Below are positions 50 through 26,975 of a stretch of DNA of 27,032 nt, piece after piece. The DNA is taken from positions 1 to 27,032 of IMG/VR virus record IMGVR_UViG_3300029977_000010. The stretch is one strand, 5' to 3'. The notes beneath the pieces are model-generated. The model made no database searches. It worked only from the letters and a program-made list of their open reading frames with translations, and was not told where the DNA came from. The position numbers and the translations under genes are program-made. The stretch is from a virus. Numbering within the stretch: the stretch's first letter is position 1; each line of letters opens with the position of its first letter.

Positions 50-124
50 GCCGGTGTAGCTCAATGGCAGAGCAGCGGAATCGTAATCCGCAGGTTGTCC
101 GTTCAAGTCGGATCGCCGGCTCCA
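50..124 (+). tRNA. tRNA-Thr (anticodon CGT), prophage attachment gene
   Basis: The sequence folds as a full cloverleaf. The acceptor is GCCGGTG with CGCCGGC (one G-T pair), the D stem GCTC/GAGC, the anticodon stem GCGGA/TCCGC with loop ATCGTAA, and the T stem GTCCG/CGGAT with loop TTCAAGT. The discriminator is T and the CCA is encoded. Anticodon CGT (82-84) reads the Thr codon ACG. Bases 55-124 are repeated exactly at 26906-26975, so most of this tRNA was supplied by the integrating element and only the first five bases plus the promoter are host-specific. The gene is structurally intact. Confidence 0.95.
55..124 (+). repeat. Left attachment-site repeat (within tRNA-Thr)
   Basis: Seventy bases are identical to 26906-26975. 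Identity stops at base 54 (g here, t in the other copy) and after base 124 (g here, a in the other copy). The repeat covers the tRNA from acceptor position 6 to the terminal CCA. It is an unusually long shared core, since many tRNA-targeting integrases share only the anticodon-loop or T-loop to 3' end portion. Confidence 0.92.
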
Positions 125-1822: not shown

Positions 1823-4489
1823 AGAGCATTATATCTCGATAACCGGAACAATGGCAAGACCTTGTTGGGACACGATGTTATAGAGGCCGCTTGTGCTTAT
1901 CTCAAGCGGGGGTGGAAGGTCATCCCTATAGAGAAGCTTAGCAAGAAACCAACCACCAAAGACTGGCCAAACTTGAACATTAGAGAGGAGGAGGTTGACC
2001 TCTACTTTAACGAAGGAAAGAACATCGGGGTCATTCTTGGTAAGCCTTCCGGTGGATTAGTAGATGTAGACATCGACTACCCCCCCGCTTATGAGGTAGC
2101 TGACTACTTCCTCCCCAAAACCGGTGCAATCTTCGGTCGTAAATCCAAACCCAGATCTCACTGGATTTACTACTGCCCAGATGCAGAAACCACGAAGTTT
2201 AGTTTTAAAGGCCAGATGCTGGTAGAGATTCGTTCCACCGGAGCACAAACTATTTTTCCTCCTTCCATTCACCCCTCTGAGGAACCAATTGAGTGGGAGG
2301 AGGCAAGTGAGGCAGCACACGTAGAGATGGAAGAGTTGAAGAGAGGCGTAGCCAAACTTGCCTCCTGCGCGCTGCTTTCTATTTACTACCCCACAGAAGG
2401 TAGCCGCCAATATGCAGCAATGGCACTTGCGGGCTACCTGCTCCGCAGAGGTTGGAGCGAGGACGAAACAAGGGGGTTCCTCGAAGCCCTGTGTAAGCTC
2501 GCTAGAGACGAAGAAACCCGCATGAGACTGACGCAGATTCGCTACACTGCAACGAAGATTGATCGTGACCTACCCACAACAGGCTTCCCCACACTTTCAC
2601 AGTACTACCCAGAGGATGTTCTACAGAAGGTTGCTGAGTGGCTTGGGCTAAAAACCGAGAAACCCAAAACAAAACAAATTGTAGTCCTGGACAAGTTCTA
2701 CCCCCGTCCCTTCACCGAACGGCTCATTGCCCGCTACCAGTTCTGGTGGCCCGGAGGGAAAGAACCACTCTACTGGTACGACCCAGAAGAAGGCATTTGG
2801 CGGGACGACGGCGAAGAGCTCATCATACATGAACTCAGAACAGCTGTTGAAGAACTGCCCGATGTACAGAAGCGGCGGTACGTCATCGATGAGATTATAG
2901 CCGATGTCAAGGGTGTGTGTTGGAAGGGAAAGCCACTTCCCGAACCACCTCTCCATCTCATTCCTCTGCAGAACGGTGTCTTTGACCTTGAAACCGGGGA
3001 AGTGCGAGAATACCGCCCGGAAGACTTCTTTACCGCGAAGCTCCCCTGGCGCTACAACCCCAAAGCTCAGAGTAAGCTCGTCATCCCTCTTATTGAAAGC
3101 ATTTTGCCTCAGGAAGAGACCATTACCCTGTACGAACTAATGGCGTATTGTCTTTTCCGGGACTATCCGTACCAGAAGTTTTTCCTGCTTTTTGGACGTG
3201 GCTCAAATGGGAAGAGCCTCTTTGCCAAAATCCTTGAACGCTTCCTGGGTAAAGAGAACGTTGCTAGTGTAACCCTTCGCGAGTTCCAGCACGATCGTTT
3301 TGCTGCGTCAAGGCTTTACCGCAAGCTGGGGAATATCTGCAGTGAGCTTGAATATGAGGACATCGAGCGCACGGGGCTTCTGAAGCAACTTTGTGGTGGA
3401 GACATGGTTGAGGCAGACCGTAAGTTCCGAGAACCGATAAAGTTCCGGAACTATGCCAAGTTGATCTTCCTTACCAATGAGGTTCCTCGCAGTACAGACA
3501 CCACAGAAGCCTTCTACCGCCGCCTCTTCCTCATCGAGTTCCCAAAGAAGTTCAAGGAAGACCCAGAACTTGAGGTGCGTGTAACCACAGCTGAGGCAGA
3601 GGAATACGAAGCCTTACTTCTCAAGGTGCTGGAAGTGCTCAAAGCTTTGAAGGACCGCGGATTCGTGTTCTCGAGACACAAGTCCATAGAGGAAACCAGG
3701 GAACTCTACCTTAAGCTTTCCTCACCCCTGCACACCTTTATCGAGGAAAACTGCGAGATTACCTACCAGTCCGATGACTACATCTACAAGTATGAGTTTA
3801 AGGAGCGTTTTGGGCAGTGGTTGAAAGAGAAGGGAAGAACCGCCTATACCGACCAGAGACTTAAGAAAGAAATGCAATCGTTAGGGATTGAGGAAGCCCG
3901 CAAGGGTGCCGATAGCTGGTGGGCATGGGTTGGACTCAAATGGAAGGACACACCGTCAAAACCGTCAAGACCGTCAGGGTTTTACAACCGATATATAGCT
4001 GGGGAAAATCGATTTGAAAACCATGACGGTTCTGACGGTCTTGACGGTACACCTTCAAAACCACACTCAACTATTGAAGAAGAAGTCGTAGACCCCACAC
4101 CCTTTGAGAATAGAACTACCAAGGCTAACCCCTCCACTTTTGAGTTTTCTGACCTCCTCCCTGAGGAAGTCTCCCAGTCTGAAGAATCCCTCTTTACTCA
4201 ACCCACCACTCCTACCCAGAACACAACCACCATTGAAGAGGAACTTACCGACTGGCTTATGGAAACCTCTGAGGAAGAGGAACGGGAAACTACCTCCCTT
4301 AGTGACTCGCCCGCTGAAGAAACTCCACTTCCCTGTTCAGTCTGTACCCACCCCAAGCGCTCCGAGATTGAATACCTTTACGACTCTATGGTCTCTCCCA
4401 AAAGACTAAGCAAGAAGTACCGCATTGATGTTGGAGTTATTAAGACGCATATGGAGGTACATCGGAAGAGTACACCTCCTCCGGTCTAA
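1820..4489 (+). CDS. Primase-helicase: prim-pol, D5-type SF3 helicase, C-terminal Cys/His HTH module
   Basis: This 889-residue replication protein begins with a bifunctional primase-polymerase domain (about residues 15-190). The acidic motif is VDVDID (81-86), followed by SHWIY with H114 and an EIRSTGAQTIFPPS segment. A D5_N-like region follows, then an SF3 helicase with Walker A GRGSNGKS (459-466), ICSELE as the Walker B-like motif, sensor LIFLTNE and arginine-finger segment FYRRLF near 565. After a winged-helix-like part comes a linker (711-743) encoded entirely by the 98-bp iteron repeat. Next is a Ser/Thr/Glu-rich stretch, then a module with CSVC near 838 and HMEVH near the end around an HTH-like sequence. 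The ORF remains open back to 1673, but that N-terminus overlaps the regulator. Expected role: unwinding and priming at the phage origin. Confidence 0.9.
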   Translation: MRALYLDNRNNGKTLLGHDVIEAACAYLKRGWKVIPIEKLSKKPTTKDWPNLNIREEEVDLYFNEGKNIGVILGKPSGGLVDVDIDYPPAYEVADYFLPKTGAIFGRKSKPRSHWIYYCPDAETTKFSFKGQMLVEIRSTGAQTIFPPSIHPSEEPIEWEEASEAAHVEMEELKRGVAKLASCALLSIYYPTEGSRQYAAMALAGYLLRRGWSEDETRGFLEALCKLARDEETRMRLTQIRYTATKIDRDLPTTGFPTLSQYYPEDVLQKVAEWLGLKTEKPKTKQIVVLDKFYPRPFTERLIARYQFWWPGGKEPLYWYDPEEGIWRDDGEELIIHELRTAVEELPDVQKRRYVIDEIIADVKGVCWKGKPLPEPPLHLIPLQNGVFDLETGEVREYRPEDFFTAKLPWRYNPKAQSKLVIPLIESILPQEETITLYELMAYCLFRDYPYQKFFLLFGRGSNGKSLFAKILERFLGKENVASVTLREFQHDRFAASRLYRKLGNICSELEYEDIERTGLLKQLCGGDMVEADRKFREPIKFRNYAKLIFLTNEVPRSTDTTEAFYRRLFLIEFPKKFKEDPELEVRVTTAEAEEYEALLLKVLEVLKALKDRGFVFSRHKSIEETRELYLKLSSPLHTFIEENCEITYQSDDYIYKYEFKERFGQWLKEKGRTAYTDQRLKKEMQSLGIEEARKGADSWWAWVGLKWKDTPSKPSRPSGFYNRYIAGENRFENHDGSDGLDGTPSKPHSTIEEEVVDPTPFENRTTKANPSTFEFSDLLPEEVSQSEESLFTQPTTPTQNTTTIEEELTDWLMETSEEEERETTSLSDSPAEETPLPCSVCTHPKRSEIEYLYDSMVSPKRLSKKYRIDVGVIKTHMEVHRKSTPPPV
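3951..4048. repeat. 98-bp iteron repeat, copy 1 (inside primase gene)
   Basis: Three ACCGTCA units start at 3952, 3961 and 3970, and three inverted units TGACGGT start at 4024, 4033 and 4042, all at exactly 9-bp spacing. They flank a 47-bp core with a central ATATATAGC and partial dyad symmetry (GGTTTT...CGAT on both strands). The reverse complement is found without a mismatch at 21416-21513. Because the period is 9, the iterons read in frame as SKP/SRP and DGS/DGL triplets. Candidate replication origin, or a palindromic mobile repeat. Confidence 0.93.
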
Positions 4490-4618
4490 TTTTGGTTACC
4501 AGTGTTTAGTGAGAGACACACACAACCATTGTGGTCCGTTCAAATAGGTAGGTAGGGAGAGACGGGCATGGCTGGGGTGTGGTGGAGGGGTGAAAAACCA
4601 AAATCCAGGAGGTCAGCC

Positions 4619-4873
4619 ATGCCAGTGGGAACCCTCAAACGCAGGAAGCGCCACTTCCCTGAGTCCTATTCCATTGAGCAAGTTATCTTCGCCGTTCAGC
4701 ATGACCACCCAGATTGGGACACGGAGCGTGTATTAGCGGAAGCAAGGAGGATCTACTCTGCAATCCGTGCCCTCGACATGCAGGAGCTCCGTTCCAATCG
4801 TAGATTCTATGCCCATGAAATTCCCTCCGGCCTTGATCCCCAAAACCAACTGAGAGAAGAAGAGGAGGAATAA
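4619..4873 (+). CDS. Small hypothetical early protein
   Basis: The start at 4619 is favoured by AGGAGG six bases upstream. An earlier in-frame ATG at 4568 has only a weak site. The 84-residue product has a basic N-terminus (GTLKRRKRHF), a helical middle (PDWDTERVLAEARRIYSAIR) and an acidic tail of consecutive Glu residues. Its TAA overlaps the ATG of the phosphoesterase gene (TAATG), so the two are probably translated together. The 130 bases separating it from the primase gene hold no recognisable gene. No family or function is recognised. Confidence 0.7.
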   Translation: MPVGTLKRRKRHFPESYSIEQVIFAVQHDHPDWDTERVLAEARRIYSAIRALDMQELRSNRRFYAHEIPSGLDPQNQLREEEEE

Positions 4874-5757
4874 TGGACTTCGTAAGTGGAATTCCTTGGT
4901 CAGAAGCTGAGATAGAGCAGTTGCGTGTTCTGTATCAGAGTGGCGTTCCTGTGAAGGAGATTGCCTATCGGCTCAATCGTTCCCCTAAAGCTGTTAAGCG
5001 TAAACTCGAGAAGCTTGGGATAAAACGTCAGTCATTGAACTTCCCTCCCGTCTTTGATAAGCCACTATCTTCAAGACCACTCCGCATTGTAGGCAATTGT
5101 GCGGTCACCTCTGACTGGCACGTGCCTTACCACGACCAGAAACTCGCGCATAAACTGTTTGAGGTTTGTAGTAGAGAGCGGATCAGGAAATTAGTCATCG
5201 CCGGTGACTTTCTAGACTTTAACTCACTCTCTCCATTCCTGAGTTGTAATCGTGATCTCAATACAGAGCTGGAAAAGGCTGGAATACTCCTCGAGAAAAT
5301 TGCCTCGTTCTTCGAGGAGGTTTATCTACTGCCTGGGAACCACGAATTTCGACTCTCAAGAAAACTTGAAACTCCTTTATCCTTTAACCATTTGGTCAGA
5401 ATGCTCACCGATGCAAAGAACATTGTACCCACTGACTACGACTTCATAGAGCTGATCTCTGGCGAAAAACGCTGGAGAATATGCCATCCGAGAAACTACA
5501 GTCAGATCAAGTGTAGAGTTGCCTACCGCCTTGCAGCCAAGTTCGAGTGCAATATCATCTCAGCCCATGGGCACTTCTTCGGTCTTACGGTGAGCGAGAG
5601 TGGTAAGTACCTCTGTATCGATTCTGGGGGATTGTTCGACATCAACCTCATAGAGTACTACTGGAACACAACTACTTTCCCTGCATGGAACCAAGGTTTT
5701 GTGGTTATTCGTGATGGTTTTCCTCTGCTTTTTTCCCCCCTACTGGGGAATGTTTGA
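4873..5757 (+). CDS. Calcineurin-like metallophosphoesterase with N-terminal helix-turn-helix
   Basis: Residues 8-50 form a GcrA/Myb-like helix-turn-helix (EAEIEQLRVLYQSGVPVKEI...SPKAVKRKLEKLG). A complete metallophosphoesterase set follows: D81 and H83 (SDWHVPYHD), D112 (AGDFLDF), N156-H157 (LPGNHEF) and H232/H234 (SAHGHFFG), the residues that bind two metal ions in this superfamily. The 294-residue protein is probably a phage nuclease or nucleotide phosphatase directed to DNA by its N-terminal domain. The substrate cannot be told from sequence. Its position after the replication genes fits a role in DNA metabolism. Confidence 0.85.
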   Translation: MDFVSGIPWSEAEIEQLRVLYQSGVPVKEIAYRLNRSPKAVKRKLEKLGIKRQSLNFPPVFDKPLSSRPLRIVGNCAVTSDWHVPYHDQKLAHKLFEVCSRERIRKLVIAGDFLDFNSLSPFLSCNRDLNTELEKAGILLEKIASFFEEVYLLPGNHEFRLSRKLETPLSFNHLVRMLTDAKNIVPTDYDFIELISGEKRWRICHPRNYSQIKCRVAYRLAAKFECNIISAHGHFFGLTVSESGKYLCIDSGGLFDINLIEYYWNTTTFPAWNQGFVVIRDGFPLLFSPLLGNV

Positions 5758-5769
5758 AGGAGGCTTCCT

Positions 5770-5913
5770 GTGAGCACCGAAACTCGACGTTTGTCTGATG
5801 AGGAGCGAGACCTTCTGCTCGTTCAGATCTGGAGAAATGTGGTTGAGATCTTAATGCACCTTGAGAAGTCCCACAGCGAAAAGGAAGAGGAGTTTCCTGT
5901 GGTTTTCCTATGA
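5770..5913 (+). CDS. 47-residue hypothetical protein (GTG start)
   Basis: AAGGAGG stands six bases before the GTG, and the TGA overlaps the next gene's ATG by four bases (ATGA). This strongly suggests a translated small gene. The product is a charged, probably helical peptide (SDEERDLLLVQIWRNVVEI, then Glu/Lys-rich). No motif is recognised. It links the phosphoesterase to the exported transglutaminase-like gene within one operon. Confidence 0.7.
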   Translation: MSTETRRLSDEERDLLLVQIWRNVVEILMHLEKSHSEKEEEFPVVFL

Positions 5914-6461
5914 GGAAGTTCTTATTGCTGGTGTTCCTCGTCGGTTCTCTTGTCCTGTTCCCTTCCTGTGTGGCTGCACTTCCCGAATTCACTACCTCAC
6001 CCTCGTTTGAGGAGTGGATTTCTAGTCTTGGCACATGGGAGGATTTGGAAGACTTCCTCCTTAGGTGTGAGTATGTCTCTGATTTCGTGCAATTCAACAA
6101 GCGAGAGTACGTCCAGACTCCTGAGGAGTTCTTCCACAATCGTAGGGGAGACTGTGAGGATTTCGCCTACTTTACAGCTTATGTGTTTCATCGGAAGTAC
6201 TGGGCCACCGAGACCTTTGTGGTTTCAGTTTCAGGCTTCTACGACGGTAAGGAGATCAGACATACAACAGCGGTTATTCGCGATCTGGGAGGTTATTTTG
6301 TTGTAGATTTCGCCACAATGTACAGGCGATATTCCACCCTTGAAGAGGCTATAAGAGCAAGCTTCCCATTCCAGAGATTGAGAATCTGGGCAGTTCAGGA
6401 GGTCAAAAGCAACCGAAGCTTGGAATCAGTAACCTTATTGAGTGAATTGGCGAGCCCGTAG
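5910..6461 (+). CDS. Exported transglutaminase-like cysteine protein
   Basis: The 183-residue product begins with a clear signal peptide (charged start, hydrophobic core FLLLVFLVGSLVLF, then PSCVAALP around residue 20). C20 could be a lipoprotein cysteine or part of a signal peptidase I site. The mature part carries a transglutaminase/BTLCP-like triad: C82 in RRGDCEDFAYF, H118 in RHTTAVI and D133 in VVDFAT. Such domains act as cysteine proteases or transferases on proteins or peptides outside the cytoplasm. In a prophage this could alter the envelope, exclude other phages, or help lysis. The last ten bases, including the TAG, lie within the tRNA-Trp gene. Confidence 0.78.
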   Translation: MRKFLLLVFLVGSLVLFPSCVAALPEFTTSPSFEEWISSLGTWEDLEDFLLRCEYVSDFVQFNKREYVQTPEEFFHNRRGDCEDFAYFTAYVFHRKYWATETFVVSVSGFYDGKEIRHTTAVIRDLGGYFVVDFATMYRRYSTLEEAIRASFPFQRLRIWAVQEVKSNRSLESVTLLSELASP

Positions 6462-6527
6462 CTCTAACGGCAGAGCGCCGGACTCCAAATCCGGGGGTTG
6501 CAGGTTCGAATCCTGCCGGACTCGCCA
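6452..6527 (+). tRNA. Phage-borne tRNA-Trp (anticodon CCA)
   Basis: All arms fold: D stem GCTC/GAGC, anticodon stem CCGGA/TCCGG with loop CTCCAAA (anticodon CCA at 6485-6487), T stem GCAGG/CCTGC with loop TTCGAAT, discriminator G and encoded CCA. The acceptor GAGCCCG/CGGACTC has one C-A mismatch at the fourth pair. The three bases before the tRNA (GGC) can pair with the GCC formed by the discriminator and the first two bases of CCA. The upstream gene's stop codon TAG is tRNA positions 8-10. The tRNA must be released from a polycistronic transcript unless a hidden promoter lies in the upstream gene. Confidence 0.92.
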
Positions 6528-6598
6528 CCCTCGCCGAGGGATCCTCTGAAGATGTACAAACTCATGCCCGAAAGTTGTTTAAGGAGAGGAGGATCGCA

Positions 6599-6868
6599 GT
6601 GACCAATGGAGTCTTCCACGATGACGCAGAAAGGGACTCAATAATCCTTCGTCTTGATGAACGACTACAGAAAATCCAAGAAGACGTTCGCAGACTCAGG
6701 GAAGATTTCTGTGGGGACCTTCTCGAATTGAAGGAAGGATTCCAGAAGTTGAACTGTAGTTTGCAGGAGTTAAAAACCGATCAAACTCAAACCAAAACTT
6801 GGGTGGGCATCTTTAGTGTGGTCTTTATGGCTTTTATTTCGTACCTCCTTCAGAAGGTGTTGCTCTGA
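6599..6868 (+). CDS. Coiled-coil protein with C-terminal membrane segment (XhlA/holin-like layout)
   Basis: The GTG at 6599 is preceded by GGAGG with a six-base spacer. A TTG further upstream has no such site. The 89 residues form a long amphipathic coiled coil (ERLQKIQEDVRRLREDF and following heptads) and then a single membrane helix (WVGIFSVVFMAFISYLL). This layout matches small holin-associated proteins such as XhlA, but short phage membrane proteins converge on it, so a lysis role is only possible. Its TGA overlaps the ATG of the small terminase gene. Confidence 0.65.
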   Translation: MTNGVFHDDAERDSIILRLDERLQKIQEDVRRLREDFCGDLLELKEGFQKLNCSLQELKTDQTQTKTWVGIFSVVFMAFISYLLQKVLL

Positions 6869-7245
6869 TGGGCCGAAAGACTCTCCTCACACCAGAGAAA
6901 GTAGAAAAAGCGAGAGAACTACGGGCCAAAGGGCTCTCCGACCAGGCTATCTACACCGCATTGGGCATCTGTAAGGATACGTTCTACACTTGGATCAGGA
7001 AAGGCGAGGCTGGACAGAAGCCTTACACAGACTTTGCAGAAGCTGTAAAAAAGGGCGAGGCAGAACTTGAAGAGACTTGCGTCAGTGGCATCCTCGAGCA
7101 GGGACTCAAAGGTAATTGGCAGGCTCTTGCTTGGCTTCTGGAACGTCTATTCCCCGAGAGGTACGCCAAAAAAGACCGGCTTGAGGTTGCCCAGCAGAAG
7201 CCCTTTGAGGTGGTAGTCAAGCTTGTCAACTCAAATCGAGATTGA
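6868..7245 (+). CDS. terS: Terminase small subunit
   Basis: The 125-residue protein starts with a helix-turn-helix (LTPEKVEKARELRAKGLSDQ, then AIYTALGICKDTFYTWIRKG) typical of small terminases that recognise the phage pac or cos site. A helical C-terminal part follows (LEQGLKGNWQALAWLLERLF). It lies directly before the large terminase gene and overlaps it by 23 bases, which suggests coupled synthesis of the packaging motor. The assignment rests on the HTH, size and position. Confidence 0.8.
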   Translation: MGRKTLLTPEKVEKARELRAKGLSDQAIYTALGICKDTFYTWIRKGEAGQKPYTDFAEAVKKGEAELEETCVSGILEQGLKGNWQALAWLLERLFPERYAKKDRLEVAQQKPFEVVVKLVNSNRD

Positions 7246-8425: not shown

Positions 8426-9652
8426 TTGAATCCTTTCAAGTTCCGCTTCAGACGAAAAGAAGAAAAGCAGAGTAGGGCATTCGGTGCCATCCTTTCCACC
8501 ACCCTTGGACAGCCGGTTTGGTCACCAGGGGGCTACGCTTCTTTTGTGCGAGAAGGCTACAAGAAGAATGTCTACGTCTATGCCTGTGTTCGCCTCATCA
8601 GCATGGCTTGTGCTGGAATCCCCTGGCTTGTGTATCAGATGCAGAAAGGTAAGTTAGAAGAGCTACCACCGGAACACCCACTGGCGTCTCTTTTTGTGCG
8701 CCCAAATCCCTGGCAGGGTTGGAGTAGATTCATCGAGGAAGTTGTTGGGTATCTTCTTCTCTCTGGCAATGCATACATCGAGATGGTTGGGCCAGAAGGT
8801 AAGCCACCAAGAGAGCTTTATGCCCTCCGTCCTGATAGGGTCAGGATTGTGCCTGGGAACCCCATCCAGCCTGTGGCAGGGTACATCTACTCCGTGGGTG
8901 GGCACGAAGTTCGTTTCAAGGCGGAGGATGTCTTACATCTCAAATTCTTCAACCCGCTAGATGATTTCTATGGTATGCCCCCAATTGAAGCGGCAGCTTA
9001 CTCGGTAGATCAGAACAACGAGAGCAGGGCATGGAATGTCGCTCTCTTGCAGAATTCCGCTCGCCCTCCAGGAGCCTTTGTCATTCCTCCCCAGGAGAGG
9101 CTTTCTGAAGAAGAATTCGAACGCTTGCGTGAACAGGTGCGAGAGCTCTACCAGGGAGGGAGAAATGCCGGAAAACCACTGCTCCTTGAGGGAGGTCTTG
9201 ATTGGAAACCAATGGGGTACTCTCCGGCCGACATGGACTGGCTGGAAGGCATTAAGCTCTCAGCACGGGAAATAGCCCTTGCTTACGGTGTCCCTCCTCA
9301 GCTCATCGGGGATAGAGAGAGTTCAACCTATGCGAACTACCAGGAAGCCCGTAAAGCCTTCTATACTGAGACTGTCCTGCCACTTATGGATTGGCTCAAG
9401 GACGAGTTCAATGCAAGGCTTGTACCTAAGTTTGGAAAAGACATGTTCGTTGACTACGACCGTGATGAAATTGAGGCATTACAGGAAGACCGGGAAGCTA
9501 TGTGGGATCGGGTTATCAGGGCAGTAGAACGAGGAGTCCTCACTCCCAACGAAGCCAGAGAACTCCTCGGATATAAGCCCGTCCCTGGTGGAGACTCACT
9601 GTTCATGCCTGGTAACCTACTACCCTACTCCTCTATTGAGGGAGAAGAATGA
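8426..9652 (+). CDS. Portal protein, HK97 family
   Basis: The TTG start has AGGAGGGA nine bases upstream. The 408-residue sequence shows HK97-type portal features: an N-terminal VYACVRLISMACAGIPW segment, HPLASLFVRPNPWQGW, GYLLLSGNAYIEMV, and late ALAYGVPPQLIGD and EARELLGYKPVPGGD motifs. The portal forms the ring at the single capsid vertex through which DNA enters and to which the tail attaches. Its stop overlaps the next ATG by four bases. Confidence 0.92.
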   Translation: MNPFKFRFRRKEEKQSRAFGAILSTTLGQPVWSPGGYASFVREGYKKNVYVYACVRLISMACAGIPWLVYQMQKGKLEELPPEHPLASLFVRPNPWQGWSRFIEEVVGYLLLSGNAYIEMVGPEGKPPRELYALRPDRVRIVPGNPIQPVAGYIYSVGGHEVRFKAEDVLHLKFFNPLDDFYGMPPIEAAAYSVDQNNESRAWNVALLQNSARPPGAFVIPPQERLSEEEFERLREQVRELYQGGRNAGKPLLLEGGLDWKPMGYSPADMDWLEGIKLSAREIALAYGVPPQLIGDRESSTYANYQEARKAFYTETVLPLMDWLKDEFNARLVPKFGKDMFVDYDRDEIEALQEDREAMWDRVIRAVERGVLTPNEARELLGYKPVPGGDSLFMPGNLLPYSSIEGEE

Positions 9653-21378: not shown

Positions 21379-21415
21379 TCCTCCTCAATACTTGAGTGTC
21401 TCATTGTAAGGTTCC

Positions 21416-21513
21416 ACCGTCAAGACCGTCAGAACCGTCATGGTTTTCAAATCGATTTTCCCCAGCTATATATCGGTTGTAAAACCCTGACGGTCTTGAC
21501 GGTTTTGACGGTG
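21416..21513. repeat. 98-bp iteron repeat, copy 2 (inverted, late region)
   Basis: This is the exact reverse complement of 3951-4048. Identity ends sharply at both sides (c21415 and c21514 do not continue the match). A further single ACCGTCA lies at 21534-21540. The copy is in a non-coding gap that seems to have been created inside the hub gene. The minus strand reads through it in the same frame as the primase linker, but no gene starts there. Confidence 0.93.
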
Positions 21514-21614
21514 CCCTGGCTTTGTTGGGGTACACCGTCAAGTCCATTGTGGATTCCAGCCGAATTCGACCAACGTTGGTTCTTCGTCGGTACCCCACAA
21601 GACAGGTTCAATAG
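21513..21614 (+). pseudogene. Detached C-terminal remnant of the tail hub gene
   Basis: Directly after the repeat a frame reads ALALLGYTVKSIVDSSRI and then RPTLVLRRYPTRQVQ before TAG at 21612. This is a good final beta hairpin for the hub fold. The TAG overlaps the next gene's AGGAGG, which is the packing seen elsewhere in this operon and marks this as the original gene end. No start codon or ribosome site precedes it, and the frame contains a TAA within the repeat (21480), so it is probably not translated alone. Confidence 0.65.
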
Positions 21615-21626
21615 GAGGTGTCTACA

Positions 21627-22124
21627 TTGCCTGTTACCTCTGATAACTTGAAGTTTTATGGTTCTCAATACATGCCAAACAACGACACTGACATCAATGG
21701 AGGCGCCATTGACCTAGGCAAACCCCTTACTGGCCTCATTGATGAGGTGTTTTCCGGCCTGTACTCGGACGAACCTGGTGGTTCTCCTGTCGTGCAGTAC
21801 AGGAAGATATTCATACGTAATGAGAGTTCCTCCGACCTCCTTGAAGCCAAGGTTTGGATTGACTACGATCCCTTGAACCAGCTCAAGATAGCCCTTGAAC
21901 CAGTTAAAAATGGCACAGATACCTCATCTGACCGTGTCACTGCTCCGGCTGGGTATGAATTTGTCGATGCCCCAAATGAAGAAAATGCCCTTCCTGTTCC
22001 TGAAGGTATACTTGGCGCTGGAGAGTGCATCGGCGTCTGGCTTAAAGTAGAAATAGAGCCCGGAATTCCTCCAGTTGATTTGGTTACGGCCAGAGTAAAG
22101 ATTAAGGGCAAGACAACCGCTTAG
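21627..22124 (+). CDS. Virion-associated tail protein
   Basis: The TTG at 21627 is eight bases after AGGAGG; the GTG at 21618 overlaps the site itself. The 165 residues are beta-rich (NLKFYGSQYMPNNDTDINGG, VVQYRKIFIRNESSSDLLEA, GECIGVWLKVEIEP), resembling phage tail-surface or appendage-attachment proteins. It begins the fibre cluster after the hub. A conserved family is suspected but not named with confidence. Confidence 0.7.
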   Translation: MPVTSDNLKFYGSQYMPNNDTDINGGAIDLGKPLTGLIDEVFSGLYSDEPGGSPVVQYRKIFIRNESSSDLLEAKVWIDYDPLNQLKIALEPVKNGTDTSSDRVTAPAGYEFVDAPNEENALPVPEGILGAGECIGVWLKVEIEPGIPPVDLVTARVKIKGKTTA

Positions 22125-25697: not shown

Positions 25698-25905
25698 CCC
25701 TACGCCTGAAGGCGTAGGGCTTGGGTTGGTGGGCCCAGGGGAAACTCCGTGACTAGGCTGAGGACGGCGCCTGCCGTCCTACGCCTGGCGGGCTACCAAG
25801 GAGGCCGGGATGCCCCCATAGTCCTGGCCTCTCTGGCAGAACCGCTCAATGTCACGATAAATACGGCAAGGAAGCCCACGACTTTAGTCGTGGGTGACTG
25901 ACTAA
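25698..25905 (+). ncRNA. Four-hairpin element, IS200/IS605 right-end or omegaRNA-like
   Basis: Four strong stems follow each other. CCCTACGCC/GGCGTAGGG has loop TGAA (25698-25719). AGGACGGC/GCCGTCCT has loop GCCT (25761-25780). A 10-bp stem GAGGCCGGGA/TCCTGGCCTC spans 25801-25831. CCCACGAC/GTCGTGGG has loop TTTA (25875-25894). The last, in its setting GGAAGCCC...GGGTGACTGAC, closely resembles the right ends of IS200/IS605-TnpB elements, where this part forms the 3' scaffold of the omegaRNA. No tnpA or tnpB is present. It may be a non-autonomous element, a domesticated guide-like RNA, or a structured 3' end shared by the convergent late and integrase transcripts. No T-run typical of a terminator follows any stem. 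Confidence 0.55.
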
Positions 25906-26825
25906 ACCCTTTTGAGCCTTCTTACCTCAAAGATTTTCAGGGGCGAGCTCTTATTGTGCTCGCTCTTCAAATCATCATTAGTGAGAGCAAGGTAACGTTT
26001 TGTCATCGTTAAGTCTGTGTGTCCCAAAATCCTCTGGAGTGCGAATGGATTTATTCCCTCTCGGAGGGAGTAGAGCGCAAAGGTGTGTCTCAAGTCGTAT
26101 GGCGTCACTCGGTAACCTATCTTTTTGCTGTACTCACGGAGAATGTGGCTCCAAGTGTACTCGCAAAGCGGCTTGCCATCCTGAGAGCAGAAGACAGGTA
26201 CATCATTCCCCCAACACTTAGGACGTACCTGGAGTAGTTTTCTCACCCATAGGCAGGTCAATGGAGAGAGTGGTAAAGTACGGCTGGTTTTCGTTTTAGC
26301 TACCTCCTTGCGGATGACGACCTCCCGAGCTTCCAGGTTAAAGTCTTCGGGGAGTAGCTGAATGGCCTCCCTTGGTCGAATACCAGTGTCTAAGGAGAGA
26401 AGCAGAAGGGTGTAATTGCGAAGGCCTGTAAAGGTTCTTTTGTCTGGAAGGTCCAGGAGTTTTTCAACAACCTCTCGAGGCAAAGCTCTGGCTTTGCCCT
26501 CGTCCTTGCGAGCCCTTATTCCCTTCAAGGGGCTTTCCGATAGTACTCCCTGGGCAATAAGATAGCTGAAGAAGTTGTTTAAATAAGCCCGGCGAAGGTT
26601 AAATGTGGCTGGAGCAATCTCTCCCCCTAAGTACTCCAGACACCTCCTGCGCAAAGCCTCAAAGTCCTGCAGGTCTCCCTCATATCCCTGGAAGAAGCGG
26701 CTCACGTGGTAACAGTAATCTCTGATGGTTCTCTCCCTACACCCAGCAAGTTGCTTCTCCATAAGGAAATCCTGAAAGTACTCCTCCCAGGTTTTGGGAT
26801 AAACAACACGTAAGACTCTTCGCAT
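25902..26825 (-). CDS. int: Tyrosine recombinase (phage integrase)
   Basis: AGGAGGG lies seven bases before the ATG at 26825; a TTG at 26831 is too close to it. The protein has 307 residues. The N-terminal SAM-like core-binding domain (TWEEYFQDFLMEKQLAGCRE...) is followed by the catalytic domain: Arg in TGIRPREA, Lys in the VIRKEVAKTK beta hairpin, PYDLRHTF, LGHTD and the nucleophile Tyr in TKRYLAL. The usual first His of the HxxR box is Tyr here (PYDLR), a tolerated variant. It sits beside the right repeat and should insert into and excise from tRNA-Thr. No excisionase was found. Confidence 0.94.
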   Translation of the reverse strand: MRRVLRVVYPKTWEEYFQDFLMEKQLAGCRERTIRDYCYHVSRFFQGYEGDLQDFEALRRRCLEYLGGEIAPATFNLRRAYLNNFFSYLIAQGVLSESPLKGIRARKDEGKARALPREVVEKLLDLPDKRTFTGLRNYTLLLLSLDTGIRPREAIQLLPEDFNLEAREVVIRKEVAKTKTSRTLPLSPLTCLWVRKLLQVRPKCWGNDVPVFCSQDGKPLCEYTWSHILREYSKKIGYRVTPYDLRHTFALYSLREGINPFALQRILGHTDLTMTKRYLALTNDDLKSEHNKSSPLKIFEVRRLKRV

Positions 26826-26905
26826 GTCCAAGCCCTCCTATGAGCAACGGATTCGCCGATTTTGCGTGAACTGGGAGTGGCTTGGAAGGGCTTAAAATAA
26901 GGGTT

Positions 26906-26975
26906 TGTAGCTCAATGGCAGAGCAGCGGAATCGTAATCCGCAGGTTGTCCGTTCAAGTCGGATCGCCGGCTCCA
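26906..26975 (+). repeat. Right attachment-site repeat (tRNA-Thr 3' copy)
   Basis: Seventy bases are identical to 55-124. The five bases before it do not restore the acceptor helix (GGGTT instead of GCCGG), so four of the first five acceptor pairs are lost and this copy should not yield a working tRNA. It marks the right end of the prophage. The following 57 bases are host chromosome without a recognisable feature. Confidence 0.92.

Follow-up and report, generated by a model that had tools for sequence, protein, structure and literature searches.

A 98-bp bipolar iteron array in exact inverted copies in a 27-kb prophage, a proposed replication initiation site of its P4-family primase-helicase

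The prophage and its two arrays

The window, that is, the whole 27,032-nucleotide stretch of viral DNA analysed here (IMG/VR record IMGVR_UViG_3300029977_000010), is a 27-kb prophage lying between tRNA-Thr direct repeats, with a tyrosine integrase at its right end (Table 1). Its primase-helicase, whose length in Table 1 is counted from the first possible start codon of the reading frame, contains Prim-Pol, D5_N and DUF5906/P4-family primase_Cterm domains according to Pfam, and it passes the TIGR01613 model at 172.1 bits (cutoff 108.7), as does the P4 alpha protein at 108.7 bits. It also matches the 797-aa DNA primase of PDB 7ola (E 3e-13), which we take to be SaPI5 Rep. What looks like a C-terminal winged helix is predicted in this protein only by its position and by a weak secondary-structure prediction, with a single-sequence structure model (pLDDT 45) being too poor to use. 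The putative winged helix is followed by the array-encoded linker PSKPSRPSGFYNRYIAGENRFENHDGSDGLDG and then by a Cys/His and HTH-like C-terminal tail. No close relatives of the primase-helicase were found among viral contigs, and the window DNA had no match in named phages. The prophage also carries a complete tRNA-Trp (CCA) gene at 6452-6527, a transglutaminase-like protein (DUF553, 5910-6458) between the replication and packaging genes, and two tandem 22-nt repeats, 82% alike, inside a tail-region gene (21870-21913).

Table 1. Features of the prophage, of its primase-helicase gene and of the two arrays (positions in the window).
Feature	Position	Strand	Remarks
Left att, 70-bp direct repeat within tRNA-Thr (CGT), prophage edge	55..124	+	
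Primase-helicase ORF, 938 aa	1673..4489	+	Pfam, TIGR01613 and PDB 7ola match
Copy 1, 98-bp bipolar iteron array	3951..4048	+	Coding; encodes PSKPSRPSGFYNRYIAGENRFENHDGSDGLDG in frame
Copy 1, ACCGTCA iterons x3	3952..3976	+	9-bp spacing; exact units start at 3952, 3961, 3970
Copy 1, core, 47 bp	3977..4023	+	38% GC vs window 50%
Copy 1, inverted iterons TGACGGT x3	4024..4048	-	9-bp spacing; exact units start at 4024, 4033, 4042
Copy 1 flank, degenerate seventh iteron ACCTTCA	4051..4057	+	1 mismatch
Copy 2, exact reverse complement of copy 1	21416..21513	-	Non-coding; 239-bp gap, tail genes
Copy 2, ACCGTCA iterons x3	21416..21440	+	Exact units start at 21416, 21425, 21434
Copy 2, inverted iterons x3	21488..21512	-	Exact units start at 21488, 21497, 21506
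Extra exact iteron near copy 2	21534..21540	+	28 bp (start to start) past copy 2
Tyrosine integrase	25902..26831	-	Pfam PF00589, E 5e-30
Right att, 70-bp direct repeat, prophage edge	26906..26975	+	26,851-bp unit

An earlier note on this DNA had described a perfect 98-bp inverted pair, each copy with a 47-bp AT-rich core flanked by three ACCGTCA units on one side and three inverted TGACGGT units on the other, spaced at 9 bp, and self-comparison of the window bears this description out in full. The two arms are 100% complementary over all 98 nt, without a mismatch and with a separation of 17,367 nt, while the second-best inverted pair in the window is only 27 nt long at 81%, and ten dinucleotide shuffles yielded exact inverted repeats of at most 14-17 nt vs. 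the 98 nt of the window. The units follow each other as 9-9-(54)-9-9 in both copies, giving 8 tandem unit pairs where 0.12 are expected, and four lone ACCGTCA sites (13311, 13709, 15558 and 15933) are at chance level. Given that the array itself is nearly palindromic, only the asymmetric core allows its two copies to be called "inverted". Copy 1 falls in the 3' part of the primase-helicase coding sequence, and copy 2 in the second largest gap of the structural operon (21379-21617), with the next gene starting at 21618; the distance between them is 17.4 kb in the window and 9.4 kb along the remaining arc of the excised circle. The conserved position of copy 1 after the helicase C-terminal domain, and the seventh unit by copy 2, had been missed in the earlier note.

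Perfect 98-bp inverted repeats might recombine, and the resulting inversion of the packaging-to-tail block, which had also been foreseen, has the right geometry; it would bring the primase-helicase frame to a stop four codons past the array (..DGGTLQ*), so that the C-terminal tail is lost and the end of this protein is exchanged. That the 17.4-kb block works as such a phase switch is nevertheless extremely improbable, given that its late genes lie on one strand and would be turned by the inversion, that the replication protein would be truncated, that no dedicated invertase was found among the proteins searched, and that the inversion shows no sign of use.

The array beside the helicase genes of other lineages

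A search with three ACCGTCA units mostly retrieved collagen-like DGADGADG coding repeats, and therefore this pattern alone was dropped as evidence. A collagen-like coding repeat, as in DGADGADG tail fibres, was excluded as an identity for the array itself, since the array is bipolar and has an exact non-coding copy, and since homologous arrays lie in other frames or after stops. The bipolar word was searched as well, and it was found in 2 viral and 4 bacterial loci, among which it lies directly 3' of the helicase C-terminal domain in those we number L096/L097, L098, L099 and L100, with L101 ending at a contig edge. Arrays after this domain occur in loci of Dehalococcoidia, Phycisphaera, Crenobacter and soil phages, and the arms are convergent in 11 viral stretches vs. 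reversed in 2. Pattern searches gave two further genomes among 400 of Chloroflexota, and nothing besides the starting genome among 399 of Pseudomonadota; in the parts of the literature available to us, TGACGGT together with primase or iteron matched primers and nothing bearing on the array.

We then consider 33 viral loci that were picked by protein similarity alone, in an alignment of a divergent helicase family. The commonest 9-bp-spaced 7-mers 3' of their winged helix are ACCGTCA and its variants, the arrays are bipolar by eye, and the word differs by lineage (ACCGTCA, ACCGTCC, AGCGTCC, AGCGTTCC, ACCGTCTAC, GGCGCAAA and CTTCCGTTG), with the iterons being read in the PS/DG frame, in the TV/DG frame, or lying beyond the stop codon. 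A word-free 9-bp-period score of at least 3 was reached by 22 of 32 protein-chosen segments vs. 3 of 679 control segments taken from these loci (MWU p 1.6e-21), the segment start having been moved by hand in several loci after their arrays had been viewed. Because the word and the frames change among lineages, and some arrays lie past the stop, the array is kept, as judged from these sequences, as a DNA site and not as a protein motif. The strong constraint on DNA function suggested by the earlier note is thus well supported, with array geometry and gene context persisting as the letters change, and its contrary case, in which only the encoded protein is conserved, disagrees with arrays found in several frames or after stops.

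Among named phages and plasmids, AcaML1 (words TGACGG/CCGTCA), Javan633, R23.1, MacnCheese, a Loigolactobacillus plasmid and pRN1 have arrays well above the controls shortly downstream of the primase-helicase. Phage BPP-1 has a perfect 2+2 array, with TTGCCTCGT twice and inverted twice, about 470 bp downstream of the gene, and in pATHE01 of C. bescii, which has a RecA-type ATPase and shares 41% identity with the window in the Prim-Pol region, the array is inside the gene, right after the HTH domain. No array was found near the P4-family genes of 9NA, KarinMuster, Vibrio 13VV501A, vir515 and pHTUR06. In L117 the array is near a DnaB-type helicase, and a self-loading helicase may therefore not be the binding partner in every case. 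In L113, several nested bipolar arrays follow the HTH domain of a RepA-type helicase gene.

Within one related helicase family, words with GGACG go with K/R at the wing position two residues ahead of a conserved Arg; with TGACG, this position holds a residue other than K/R, mostly Gly, in 13 of 14 cases. This covariation between wing residue and iteron word is suggestive only: it is the best of 518 columns, at 0.98 bits, and with relatedness counted it comes down to 3 independent pairs and loses significance (p 0.25).

The persistence of one gene context also bears on two other roles that had been proposed for the pair. A palindromic mobile or copied repeat having no replication function, and recently duplicated into the tail-gene gap, would agree with one copy being coding and the other non-coding, and with a perfect identity that ends exactly at the outer iteron edge on both sides. 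It is quite improbable all the same, given that no third copy of the 98-bp sequence exists elsewhere in the viral record, that the region of copy 1 has no plasmid match, and that other lineages hold the gene context and the spacing while the letters vary, which is the opposite of a spreading element. Iteron arrays of such size also act as partition sites, and copy 2 lies in the late region, as might be expected of a partition, packaging (pac/cos) or other nucleoprotein site. Such a site is very improbable: across lineages, including small plasmids without packaging, the array keeps to the 3' side of the helicase winged-helix domain and tracks this gene and not terminase or Par, and no Par gene was found in the window among the families searched. 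Of the roles offered in the earlier note, it is the duplicated replication origin that the comparative evidence favours.

Two-site phages and known origins

Two separate arrays with the same word at both are found in the phages L122, L137, L143 and L156, and in L146 the word also recurs in a second array at another place in the phage. The two of L122 are 4.2 kb apart, in opposite orientation and both non-coding, one being just 3' of a DUF3631/Toprim helicase, and in L137 and L143 they are about 6 kb apart, with the second after a putative integrase gene. In the L122 pair the iterons are retained and the cores have diverged; therefore, the identity of the window cores would be most readily accounted for by recent copying or gene conversion, both among the causes given in the earlier note, and not by a constraint on every base. 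The complete AcaML1 genome has one array, so two sites are not universal. That both window copies act together as a two-site origin has, in our judgement, only a little better than an even chance.

The same plan is known from phage P4, with the comparison resting on the annotated P4 record. There, crr (4291-4590) is immediately 3' of alpha (4636-6969) and ori1 (9310-9413) is about 5 kb from crr, with type 1 repeat spacings of 9-43-18-14 in crr and 10-11-22-43-10 in ori1. Like P4, the window has a P4-family primase-helicase, both passing TIGR01613, short iterons of about 9 bp spacing (9-10 bp in P4) in both orientations around an AT-enriched spacer (about 43 bp in P4), one site at the helicase-gene 3' end, in the crr position, and a second array kilobases away. 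They differ in the iteron word (GGTGAACA in P4, ACCGTCA in the window) and in the primase, which is of the Toprim type in P4 (PMC4234260) and Prim-Pol in the window. Furthermore, ori1 and crr are unlike each other in layout, whereas the window sites are one identical 98-bp 3+3 array, with site 1 within the coding sequence and not beside the gene as crr is beside alpha. The ori1 layout (F10F11F22R43F10F) is in neither window copy, both being 3+3, and thus the window, P4-like in plan, is not classed as a P4 ori1/crr pair.

The lambda ori, embedded in the initiator gene O, is another origin within an initiator coding sequence. The oriV of the IncU plasmid RA3 also sits in the 3' end of repB (PMC9455977). 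Both are like copy 1 in being embedded, and unlike the window in having unrelated initiators, a single site and another architecture. The helicases of SaPI and SCCmec use their C-terminal domain to bind iterons that lie right behind their genes, and SaPI Rep reportedly binds as two hexamers (PMC7581432). SaPI Rep and SCCmec Cch/Cch2 share with the window, whose helicase matches PDB 7ola, the iterons at a self-loading helicase gene, and differ in that their sites are past the stop codon, single and of other iteron words.

An archaeal case is pRN1 of Sulfolobus, which, like the window, has a Prim-Pol, an SF3 helicase and a C-terminal winged helix (PMC4234260), the last being putative in the window. 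Its origin is an inverted structure of about 100 bp downstream of orf904, required together with the replication operon and relocatable, and its authors described a stem-loop without iterons and proposed hairpin recognition (PMC4234260). In the origin arms (L157, 4607-4700) we find TGTCCA twice and TGGACA twice, each at 9-bp spacing, and by its sequence this "stem-loop" is a bipolar iteron array of 9-bp period. Both pRN1 and the Bordetella phage BIP-1/BPP-1 resemble the window in these domains and in having a site of about 100 bp, inverted, 3' of the gene, and differ from it in having a single one. Given that the pRN1 site is experimentally needed, it lends experimental weight to an origin function of the class, and its iterons suggest another way in which this site may be recognised.

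Proposed initiation at the arrays and a possible common origin module

With a probability of roughly 0.8, we propose that the prophage's own P4-family primase-helicase binds the arrays and that they are sites at which replication is initiated. The position of the array and its geometry are conserved across lineages with changing letters, the protein belongs to the family, and a function as an origin site of the P4/SaPI type would follow these. The C-terminal winged-helix domain would bind the units, three to either side of the core, so that two helicase rings could assemble face to face over the AT-enriched 47 bp, an arrangement we infer by analogy with the binding of SaPI/SCCmec helicases; the rings would then melt the core, prime, and start bidirectional replication, at whichever copy is used. 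Copy 1 would occupy the crr-equivalent position, the SaPI, SCCmec and pRN1 origins being also 3' of the helicase domain, and would differ from them in lying inside the gene, in the linker after the putative winged helix, while copy 2 would be the second identical site, placed as ori1 is relative to crr in a two-site system. In the best reading, the window has an initiation site of the P4/SaPI type in two identical copies, one of them inside a coding sequence.

Iterons often double as copy-control sites, and the array might instead be an operator, at which a replication protein or another phage protein controls transcription or copy number (autoregulation, handcuffing), in keeping with the gap of copy 2 being ahead of a gene start and with the L117 array not being beside a self-loading helicase. 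This is unlikely, because the array is at a gene 3' end and not at a promoter, because P4 crr and ori1 are annotated as replication elements, and because replication of pRN1 requires the equivalent site, which also functions when moved (PMC4234260).

Beyond the initiation sites proposed for the window, it is rather probable that a single origin module, defined by its geometry and not by its letters, serves the winged-helix primase-helicases of bacterial and archaeal viruses and plasmids, with the word drifting together with the winged helix. The module would consist of bipolar words of about 7 bp, with a 9-bp period and a core of about 45 bp, at or inside the helicase 3' end; two separate arrays within a phage may share its word, and it would often be accompanied by a P4-ori1-like second part (three tandem words, one inverted, a spacer of about 45 bp, and two tandem). 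If this is true, the "stem-loop" origins of pRN1 and BPP-1 would be iteron arrays, and the window the symmetric two-copy form. The P4 ori1/crr, the SaPI/SCCmec iterons and the pRN1 stem-loop have so far been described as separate origins with differing ideas on their recognition, and a conserved spacing common to all of them would bring them together and would allow origins to be found by sequence only in unannotated phages and plasmids. The reason for two sites, the choice between iterons and hairpin in pRN1, and the winged-helix residues that set the word would become testable, with the window as a clean test case, given its two identical symmetric copies, one coding-embedded.

As to the second part of the module, the ori1 spacing recurs, with other words, in second arrays such as those of L122 and L143. 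When 1.42 Mb were scanned for this spacing irrespective of the word, nine loci matched and no shuffled locus did, with one shuffle per locus as control, with spacing ranges chosen after P4 and these loci were seen, and with some of the scanned loci retrieved via the ACCGTCA pattern; the matches are in P4, MacnCheese, a Halomarina plasmid, L117, L122 (twice), L139, L143, L144 and L153. Simple 2+2 arrays are at 29 sites in 25 loci, and none in the shuffles. The L144 match (762-880), with the word AGCGTCC, is far upstream of the helicase gene, whose own 3' array is weak. In the Mycobacterium phage MacnCheese (L165, 5053-5295), the word GGCACA is spaced F9F10F23R43F9F, near-identical to P4 ori1, and this array lies in the gap after the primase/helicase gene, making it a candidate origin. 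In the Halomarina plasmid (L171, 6616-6870), two P4-ori1-like modules with the word GAGTCAAT together make up one large palindrome, which lies about 520 bp past the 3' end of the primase gene.
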